Below the pieces are notes generated by a model. The model was not told the DNA's origin, ran no database searches, and saw nothing but the letters and a program-made list of their open reading frames with translations. A DNA stretch of 51,933 nucleotides, from positions 1 through 51,933 of the forward strand of contig JAWAZL010000009.1 of assembly GCA_038817485.1 (NCBI GenBank), read 5' to 3'. This DNA is from Nitrososphaerota archaeon. Its GTDB lineage: Archaea; Thermoproteota; Nitrososphaeria_A; Caldarchaeales; JAVZCJ01. Shown here one piece after another: positions 6,924-50,946 of this stretch; within the stretch, counting starts at the first letter, position 1, and the number at the start of each line of letters is the position of its first letter. A program made the translations under genes and the position numbers.

Positions 6924-7013
6924 GGGCCCGTGGCCTAGAATGGATCGTATTAGTTTAAATAGGGCAGCGGCCTTCGGAGCCGCAAGTCGCGGGTTCAAAT
7001 CCCGCCGGGCCCG
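6924..7013 (+). tRNA. tRNA-Arg (anticodon TCG) with 15-nt D-loop intron
   Basis: Acceptor GGGCCCG (6924-6930) pairs with CGGGCCC (7006-7012), discriminator G7013; CCA is not encoded. Anticodon stem GCGGC (6967-6971)/GCCGC with loop CTTCGGA gives TCG at 6974-6976. T-arm GCGGG-TTCAAAT-CCCGC is at 6989-7005. The D-loop is 15 nt too long. Excising 6944-6958 leaves a standard D-arm. That cut is supported by a bulge-helix-bulge: CCUA/UAGG outer helix, 3-nt bulge GG|A, 4-bp GAAU/GUUU helix (two G-U pairs), 3-nt bulge AA|A. The intron would lie between positions 19 and 20. tRNA identity is certain; the exact splice sites are inferred. Confidence 0.95.
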
Positions 7014-25288: not shown

Positions 25289-26434
25289 TTATATTTTTCT
25301 AAGAATTTCAATAGTTCTTTTTGCAATATTCTTGGAAGCATTTATATGTTTATTATTTATCAATCCGCATTTGCTACAAAAGAATTCTTTTCCTTTAATT
25401 TTTCCATAGCTTTCACATCTACTACATATTCTTGAAGTTTTATAAGAATCTACTAATATTTGTTTTAGATTTCTTTGATTTTTATTGTATGTCGGCAAAT
25501 ATGTTAAGATTTTTGTAGAATAATTCCATAGACTTTTTTCAAATGTTCTTTGGATAATCTTACCTCTAAGCCATTCTGTATTCTTTTTATTTATCTTTTT
25601 GCTATTATTTCCAGCTTCATAGTCTTTTAAATCTTCAAATGAAATTATTGCAATTTCACAATTATATTGTTTAATGCTTTCTAATGCAATATCAATAAGT
25701 TTCTTAGAAGTTTTCTCTATCCAATCTTTATTCTGTCTTTGAATCCTTGCATTTATTCTTTGGAATAATTCATTGTATTTTACTGAAATTCCATGATTTT
25801 CTTGTAGCTTCCATTTTACAATTTCTTGGAATTGATGACTTTTTATTTTTGGTTTAACAAAAGCAAACTTCATTGATTTTATTGAATTATTGCTTTTATT
25901 CCATATCCATAAAGAATAAGCTACGCCATGTTTTGAATTTAAATCTACTCCAACAATAGAAATTCTTTGAAATTTTTTAAATTCTTCTTTAGTTAATAGT
26001 TCAATGTTTTTCTTCAAAGTTATATGTAGTTCCCAATGTCCATTTTTGATTATTTCTCTTCTTCTATGCTTACCTTTTTTATAAGATGGTGGCAAAGCTC
26101 TAAGCATTGTTGCTTTAGCTCCATTATTAATTTCTTTTTTAAGATACTCTATATTTTCTTCAGCAATTTTTATCGGAGTTCTTTTGTATTTCTCAATACT
26201 TGTTAGTTTTACTTCATTGTTTTCAAAGTCTATATTGAAACCAGTTTCGCAAAATGTCAAATGAGAAACTTCAAAGCAATCAAATAGCTTCATTGAAGCT
26301 TTTAATGTTGATGGTAAATCAAATTCTATATTTCTTCTATATCTATACTTTGCAATATTCCATGAATTCAGCAAATTCCAAAGATTTCCATTATCCCCAA
26401 CTACCTTGACTCTTACTGTTTTTCTTACCTCCAT
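25289..26434 (-). CDS. tnpB: TnpB-family RNA-guided nuclease of an IS200/IS605-type element, third RuvC residue changed
   Basis: TnpB proteins are transposon-encoded nucleases guided by omega-RNA. The true start is ATG 26434 with GGAGGT 6 bp upstream, giving 381 residues. RuvC-I Asp164 (VGVDLNSKHG) and RuvC-II Glu267 (IISFEDL) are present, and a zinc finger has Cys337, Cys340, Cys353 and Cys356. At RuvC-III, where D-x-N-A is expected, the sequence is NKHINASKNI, so His363 replaces the aspartate. Cleavage is therefore doubtful, while RNA and DNA binding could remain. No tnpA gene is nearby, so the element depends on a transposase elsewhere or is dead. Confidence 0.9.
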   Translation of the reverse strand: MEVRKTVRVKVVGDNGNLWNLLNSWNIAKYRYRRNIEFDLPSTLKASMKLFDCFEVSHLTFCETGFNIDFENNEVKLTSIEKYKRTPIKIAEENIEYLKKEINNGAKATMLRALPPSYKKGKHRRREIIKNGHWELHITLKKNIELLTKEEFKKFQRISIVGVDLNSKHGVAYSLWIWNKSNNSIKSMKFAFVKPKIKSHQFQEIVKWKLQENHGISVKYNELFQRINARIQRQNKDWIEKTSKKLIDIALESIKQYNCEIAIISFEDLKDYEAGNNSKKINKKNTEWLRGKIIQRTFEKSLWNYSTKILTYLPTYNKNQRNLKQILVDSYKTSRICSRCESYGKIKGKEFFCSKCGLINNKHINASKNIAKRTIEILRKI

Positions 26435-26458
26435 GTTCCCACCTCCTTTTTCTTTTTT

Positions 26459-26593
26459 CCTGCTCAATTTAAGAGCAGGTCGGTAATTGCAACCGAGCAG
26501 GAAGGAGATGAGAACATGGAAGCAAGAAAAACAATAAGAGTATGTAGTTGGAGCCAAGCTTCCTATTCCAGAAAAGAGGGGCTAAACTATGGT
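26459..26593 (+). mobile_element. Inverted mini-copy of the tnpB element (internal deletion)
   Basis: On the plus strand a left-end hairpin (CCTGCTC 26459-26465 / GAGCAGG 26473-26479) is followed by TCGGT/ACCGA, a ribosome site, and ATG 26516 opening MEARKTIRV, nearly the same as the full tnpB start MEVRKTVRV. After nine codons it jumps to right-end sequence: GTAGTTGGAGCCAAGCTTCC, then CCAGAAAAGAGGGGCTAA and ACTATGGT, which match the full element's right end. The middle of tnpB and the omega-RNA is deleted. It lies head to head with the full copy and shares its left-end palindrome. Confidence 0.75.
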
Positions 26594-46083: not shown

Positions 46084-46837
46084 ATGTTTAATTGGAAAAA
46101 TAATAAATTCGAAAGAAAGAATTCTAAAAGCATTAGAACATGAAGAGCGGATAAAGTAGCTATTGATCTTGGATGAAATTGCTTTATGAAGAAAGCAATT
46201 ATGCATTAGTTTCTGGTTATTTATCTGGTGTTTTTGAACTTTCTTGGAATCTTAGAGGTTTAGATAAGTTTCTAATAGATTTAATAGTAAATAAGAAATT
46301 TGCAGAAATTCTTATGGATAAAGCTCTTAATTTTGCTTTAGCATTTTGGGATGAATTATTAGATAGAGTAGGAAAATATGTACAAATTGTAGAAGTTGGA
46401 GAAGATTTATTAAACCAAGGGATGAGAAAATATTCAAGTTCATAAAAAAGAAAGCCAATGTTTACTTACTCTCATATTCTTGTGGAAGCATTTATAAATT
46501 TATTCCAGATCTTATAGAAATGGGAGTTGATGCTCTTAATCCTATACAAGTTTCAGCAAAAGATATGGATACAAAAAAGCTAAAAGAAGAATTTGGAGAA
46601 AAAATAACTTTTTGGGGTGGAGGATGTAATGCACAACATATTTTGTCACATGGTTCCCCAGAAGATGTTATAAATGAAGTAAAGAAAAGGATTAATGAGT
46701 TAGCTCCAGGTGGTGGATTTGTATTTACTCAAGTTCATAATATACAAGCAGATGTTCCTCCAGAAAATATTGTAGCTATGTTTGAAACTGTGAAAAAATA
46801 TGGTTTTGTATCCAATAAAAATATAAAGTTAAAATAA
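46084..46837 (+). pseudogene. Uroporphyrinogen-decarboxylase-like protein, decayed
   Basis: Recognisable pieces of a URO-D superfamily protein in changing frames: SKERILKALEHEE and DKVAIDLG (46110-46165), then a large gap, YEESNYALVSGYLSGVFELSWNLRGLDKFLID and VEVGED, a small deletion, RFIKPRDEKIFKFIKKKANV, and SCGSIYKFIPDLIEMGVDALNP to the natural end VKKYG near 46820. At least two deletions and several frame changes mean a genuine pseudogene. In life it was probably a corrinoid methyltransferase-like or URO-D-like enzyme. Confidence 0.8.
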
Positions 46838-50599: not shown

Positions 50600-50819
50600 A
50601 AAATACTATAATAAAAATTAATGCAGATTCATTATCTTTAAATGATATTGCTAAAAAATTTACTGAATTTTTCAGTAAATTATTATAAATAGCAAAAGAT
50701 AAAGCTATAAAAAATAGATTCTTATTAAGCTAGAGATTAATAAAAAATTAATTTTTTTATGAAAAAAATATTGAAAAAGATTTAAACAAGCATATTAAGA
50801 AATAAAGATTTGAAAGAAT

Positions 50820-50946
50820 AGCGGGGTGGGGAACCTTTCAGCATAAGCTGGAAGCCCGAGGCCAGGAGATCGATATAATTATATCGACTTGAGATCCCGT
50901 CGGGCTCATAACCCGAAGATCGCTGGTTCAAATCCAGCCCCCGCTA
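50820..50946 (+). tRNA. Initiator tRNA-Met (CAT) with two insertions
   Basis: Acceptor AGCGGGG (50820-50826) pairs with CCCCGCT (50939-50945); discriminator A50946. The anticodon loop CTCATAA gives CAT at 50907-50909 on stem TCGGG/CCCGA. T-arm GCTGG-TTCAAAT-CCAGC. The A1-T72 pair and the GGG/CCC in the anticodon stem mark it as the initiator. Removing 13 nt in the D-loop (about 50834-50846) and 41 nt between the D-stem and anticodon stem (about 50859-50899) leaves a normal 73-nt tRNA. The second insertion holds a GATAT/ATATC hairpin. Exact splice sites are ambiguous and no strict bulge-helix-bulge was found. Confidence 0.93.

Follow-up and report, generated by a model that had tools for sequence, protein, structure and literature searches.

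A doubly interrupted archaeal initiator tRNA-Met gene with two predicted EndA-type introns in its D-loop

The window analysed here, a stretch of 51,933 nucleotides from a Nitrososphaerota archaeon, contains an initiator tRNA-Met gene that is interrupted twice within its D-loop. As judged from the sequence, the gene is very probably functional and present in a single copy, and two introns of the EndA type, to be spliced by EndA and RtcB, were gained in its D-loop. The double interruption is explained by the well-known tRNA splicing of archaea, with the excision itself being a prediction.

Results

Identification and copy number of the gene

The gene is located at 50820-50946 on the forward strand, exactly where an earlier note on this DNA had placed an initiator tRNA-Met. 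It is the top match in its genome to a covariance model (R1) based on 19 uninterrupted initiators from relatives and covers the full length of this model (1-75, E=1.2e-15). The acceptor stem reads AGCGGGG/CCCCGCU and the anticodon loop CUCAUAA, and the gene shows the features of an archaeal initiator, namely A1-U72, an anticodon stem GGG/CCC, the anticodon CAU and a D-loop with A14-GCC-(A/T)-GG. Because of the two inserts, the intact gene is missed by ARAGORN and likewise, at the gathering threshold, by the tRNA model of Rfam, which picks up only the anticodon and T arms. The spliced sequence of 75 nt is called tRNA-Met(CAT) by ARAGORN and has the same D-stem of 4 bp as the initiator of a congener (genome G001).

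The assembly is a draft of 1.44 Mb in 38 contigs and is 98.25% complete. Neither sequence search nor covariance model search found a second initiator copy in it; the uninterrupted second gene that the earlier note had named as speaking against its interpretation was therefore not encountered. A match with one mismatch (L002) was rejected as a second initiator since its surroundings are not those of a tRNA.

Placement of the intron borders

The congener carries an uninterrupted initiator (L029), its only one, with the D-arm GGGGAAGCCAGGTTATCCC, and the gene studied here occupies the syntenic position. Both loci share the upstream neighbours, a 4Fe-4S protein and a protein of 116-128 aa, and their promoter regions match closely, with the stretch GAAAAAGATTTAAACAAGCATAT being identical upstream of both genes. 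A single way of cutting restores the D-arm of the congener: GGGGAA / 27 nt / GCCAGG.. / 25 nt / ..UCCC. The features of the locus, all on the forward strand, are as follows.

50781..50786, +, probable box A (TATA-like) TTTAAA, a putative promoter element predicted from the sequence
50820..50833, +, exon 1, 14 nt, AGCGGGGTGGGGAA, positions 1-14, the same as positions 1-14 of the congener
50834..50860, +, intron 1, 27 nt, between A14 and G15, placed by comparison, motif scan and fold
50861..50868, +, exon 2, internal, 8 nt, GCCAGGAG, positions 15-20a, with the conserved GCCAGG of archaeal initiators
50869..50893, +, intron 2, 25 nt, between 20a and A21, placed by motif scan and minimum-energy fold
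50894..50946, +, exon 3, 53 nt, positions 21-73, with the anticodon CAU and no encoded CCA, placed by alignment to model R1

For intron 1, only the border 14/15 restores the conserved AAGCCAGG, and the invariant A14-GCC-N-GG of the relatives, found as AGCC(A/T)GG in all 19 aligned initiators, also fixes the intron borders. The border of intron 2 is free over seven positions by sequence because GAGATC is repeated; a bulge-helix-bulge motif fits one of these seven (20a/21). Both introns thus sit in the D-loop, separated by an exon of 8 nt. In total, the inserts make up 52 nt of the precursor of 127 nt. The earlier claim of two interruptions outside 37/38 in an archaeon is correct. The comparison with a related genome that had been suggested as a check confirms through the uninterrupted congener that the interruption is real, but it does not bear out the proposed borders: instead of 13 nt in the D-loop and 41 nt between D-stem and anticodon stem, it gives an insert of 27 nt at 14/15 and one of 25 nt that lies in the D-loop as well and is placed at 20a/21 by the splicing motif.

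Splicing motifs at both introns

In a scan of the precursor, 4,025 excisions were scored in the orientation of canonical introns; for the central helix, bases six to three before the end of the 5' exon were paired with those at the corresponding place before the end of the intron. The two best of the 4,025, with H+h'=11 each, were 50869-50893 and 50834-50860 and coincide exactly with the introns placed by comparison. None of 500 dinucleotide shuffles reached such a score where intron 1 lies or at one of the seven possible borders of intron 2, and 16 of the 500 held at least two placements that good anywhere.

The motif of intron 2 combines a complete central helix (CAGG/CUUG, 4/4) with an intron hairpin of 7 bp (UCGAUAU/AUAUCGA) and with bulges of 3 nt at both borders (AG^A and AG^A); the D-stem strand UCCC then follows the 3' bulge. 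Its outer helix is the D-stem GGGA/UCCC, offset by 3 nt from the central helix once intron 1 is removed. Intron 1 shows a relaxed motif of the HBh' type (as described in PMC6379350) with a central helix of three out of four pairs between G10-12 and CCC, an intron hairpin of 8 bp (CUUUCAGC/GCUGGAAG), the bulges AA^C at the 5' and AG^G at the 3' border, and no clear outer helix. Hence a strict or relaxed motif is present at the borders of both introns, and neither forms a perfect hBHBh' over its whole length. The statement that there is no strict bulge-helix-bulge does not hold for the central part of intron 2, and for intron 1 it is incomplete, as a relaxed motif is present there. The pairing of the flanks GCCCGA/TCGGGC is not the splice structure; in the motif of intron 1, G10-12 instead pairs with the CCC of this GCCCGA. 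Both motifs occur together when the intact precursor is folded at minimum energy (z=-4.7).

A two-step excision (14+13 nt for intron 1, 14+11 nt for intron 2) was considered by hand as well and became needless once the motif was set in the canonical 37/38 orientation. No Rfam match to a group I or group II intron was obtained, and inserts of 27 and 25 nt contain no large catalytic core.

The splicing enzymes and the predicted pathway

Two PF01974 proteins, i.e. EndA subunits, are encoded in the genome. The alpha subunit (182 aa) aligns with EndA of Aeropyrum pernix including the Tyr, the Lys and the His that is replaced by Ala in 3ajv, and its loop lysine aligns with K44 of the A. pernix loop, whereas the beta subunit (192 aa) is without the catalytic histidine. 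By alignment, the two subunits are predicted to assemble as an (alpha-beta)2 enzyme carrying the crenarchaeal loop, with which relaxed motifs can be cut; the loop lysine is required for the cleavage of such motifs (PMC6379350). One RtcB is encoded (564.6 bits). For the D-arm introns of tRNA-Glu of Sulfolobus tokodaii, experiments have demonstrated that the organism's own EndA cuts at the predicted places (PMC4307357). The ordinary tRNA-splicing enzyme should be able to remove both introns here, and processing by the splicing endonuclease, already proposed in the earlier note, gains plausibility from the motifs at both introns and the encoded EndA genes.

Transcription would start from the conserved upstream promoter and yield the precursor of 127 nt, in which two tandem stem-loops would replace the D-arm. 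The heterotetrameric EndA would cut intron 1 at AA^C/AG^G and intron 2 at AG^A/AG^A, and RtcB would join the exons of 14, 8 and 53 nt to a normal initiator tRNA of 75 nt, expected to contain GGGGAAGCCAGGAGATCCCG.

Since the motif of intron 1 occupies G10-12 of the D-stem, some coupling or order of the two excisions is conceivable. In its strong form, intron 1 would obligatorily leave first, whereupon G10-13 could enter the D-stem and thereby complete the intron 2 motif, so that maturation could become a control point. We regard this as rather unlikely. The 5' strand of the D-stem, which also serves intron 2 as outer helix, is indeed taken up by the central helix of intron 1 (G10-12); however, the intact precursor folds with both motifs formed at the same time in their central and inner parts, and an EndA whose loop is of the K44 type should accept motifs without an outer helix (PMC6379350). 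A fixed order of cleavage, raised as a possibility in the earlier note, is not required because both motifs exist side by side in this fold. More doubtful still is the wider idea that two recent introns in one D-loop, with an exon of 8 nt between them, make initiator splicing an ordered and possibly rate-limiting two-step process.

Evidence for a functional gene and against other structures

With both introns taken out at the borders given above, the gene differs from that of the congener in its stems only by compensated double changes, at the pairs 27-43, 28-42, 49-65 and 50-64 (tRNA numbering), and all other differences lie in loops or junctions. The gene is considered alive because all four stem differences are compensated. 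The same finding argues against a decayed initiator whose intact counterpart is absent from the assembly, for which a draft of this completeness and contig number would leave room. Such a pseudogene is very improbable, as A1-U72 and the GGG/CCC anticodon stem are also kept, the inserts bear splicing motifs, the locus is syntenic with the only initiator gene of the congener, and the searches found no further copy.

The division into a D-loop insert of 13 nt (UUUCAGCAUAAGC) and a second one of 41 nt between D-stem and anticodon stem yields a product that ARAGORN still recognises as tRNA-Met, but it is hardly credible. This product has 73 nt, a D-stem of 3 bp and C15 opposite C48, and its D-loop lacks A14-G15-C-C and with it the AGCC(A/T)GG kept in every aligned initiator. 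Moreover, neither insert is located at a good splicing motif, and the conserved GCCAGGAGAU would fall within an intron. That the gene is a tandem of tRNA pieces, split or permuted and to be processed in trans or via a circle, has a next to negligible chance: initiators are disrupted in this way in Nanoarchaeum equitans (split) and Thermofilum pendens (permuted) (PMC2237900, PMC3218864), but the three exons here are neither apart nor inverted. They follow each other colinearly within 127 nt of one strand, share a single conserved promoter in front of them and are joined, neighbour to neighbour, by cis hairpins.

Distribution of the introns and of other interrupted tRNA genes

An uninterrupted initiator of 75 nt is also found in a more distant relative (G300, 68% identity in the neighbouring 4Fe-4S protein), and the initiators of the same order in the alignment are uninterrupted. 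For this reason, a gain in the lineage of the organism itself is the simplest history, and both introns were most likely gained after the split from the sequenced congener. Copies of intron 1 or intron 2 with up to 3 mismatches occur nowhere else in the genomes of the organism and its congener, and so there is no sign of intron transposition. It is more likely that the two introns are neutral than that they are regulatory.

Interruptions of the D-loop are not confined to the initiator. Within the same genome, D-loop inserts are present in tRNA-Gly(TCC), Arg(TCG), Arg(GCG), Thr(GGT), Asn, Asp and both Gln genes, with less certain borders, and several of these genes also carry an intron in the anticodon loop. 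Introns turn over between the two congeners: the initiator, Gly(TCC), Arg(TCG) and Arg(GCG) are interrupted in this genome and not in the congener, Arg(TCT) and one Ala gene have D-loop inserts only in the congener, and Thr(GGT) and Gln(TTG) have them in both. Across the genomes of the phylum examined, initiator introns at 37/38, at 18/19 or in the T-loop are common. The combination of D-loop and 37/38 occurs in nine genomes examined (L152, L190, L191, L199-L201, L206-L208), an initiator tRNA-Met with introns in anticodon loop and T-loop was found at G059:C1:1233175-1233292 (L192), and one of 126 nt at G097:C6:147992-148117 (L223) has three introns, in D-loop, anticodon loop and T-loop. In this sample, no other initiator has an intron at 14/15 or two introns in one arm. 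To call two insertions in an initiator unusual was thus overstated, given at least six other tRNAs with D-loop inserts in the same genome and initiators with two or three introns elsewhere in the phylum.

Some further observations concern the other tRNA genes. The tRNA-Arg(TCG) gene at 6924-7013 (+) of the window contains a D-loop intron of 15 nt, with the best motif at about 6944-6958 and a central helix of 4/4; ARAGORN miscalls it as 'tRNA-Stop', and the gene of the congener (L156) is uninterrupted. An identical insert of 15 nt at the same site is shared by the tRNA-Arg genes GCG and TCG of the organism (L068, L064) and is absent from those of the congener (L156, L158), which suggests gene conversion or intron copying. 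The inserts of tRNA-Thr(GGT) and tRNA-Asn (L067, L072) have AC..AAA-(U)CCAGG...CCUGG-A..UAGGnUAAA in common and may be related introns. Four tRNA-Leu genes of the organism (C4:79425, C2:119636, C4:14100 and C18:30474) have about 12 nt extra in the variable arm, comprising a direct repeat TGGCGYA...TGGCGCA and possibly representing another intron.

Two protein-coding regions of the window were noted by eye. At 46173-46837 (+), two adjacent short ORFs appear to be pieces of a protein of the uroporphyrinogen decarboxylase type and are possibly frameshifted, and an ORF at 25289-26557 (-) ends in a zinc motif of four cysteines that resembles TnpB from IS200/IS605 elements.

Discussion

Non-canonical and multiple bulge-helix-bulge introns of archaeal tRNA genes are known from Thermoproteales, Thermofilum, Aeropyrum and Sulfolobus (PMC3218864, PMC4033280, PMC4307357). 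In comparison, the present case concerns another lineage and an initiator gene, and its two introns share one D-loop with an exon of 8 nt between them. It resembles the initiators with introns in D-loop and 37/38 position and the three-intron gene L223 in being interrupted more than once, and the D-loop intron of those genes mostly has the bulge AG^A too; unlike here, it is located at 18/19, and their remaining introns interrupt 37/38 or the T-loop. As in the permuted initiator of T. pendens and the split one of N. equitans (PMC3218864, PMC2237900), an essential single-copy initiator would be rebuilt through the splicing machinery, but its pieces are colinear and in cis. Like the gain of an intron in tRNA-Thr(GGU) of Caldiarchaeum subterraneum (PMC3293823), it is a presence/absence difference between very close relatives at one locus; in contrast to that case, neither a mobile element nor a tRNA fragment can be seen next to the gene.

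The arrangement of two introns in one arm together with their apparently recent gain is mildly unusual. Since many tRNA genes of this organism and its relatives are interrupted likewise, the gene is a good but largely ordinary example. It illustrates that the D-loop of an initiator has room for two motifs with no more than 8 nt between them. As ARAGORN and Rfam fail on the whole gene, initiators may be reported missing from such genomes. The intact and the doubly interrupted gene at the same locus form a clean congeneric pair for the study of intron gain in an essential single-copy gene.
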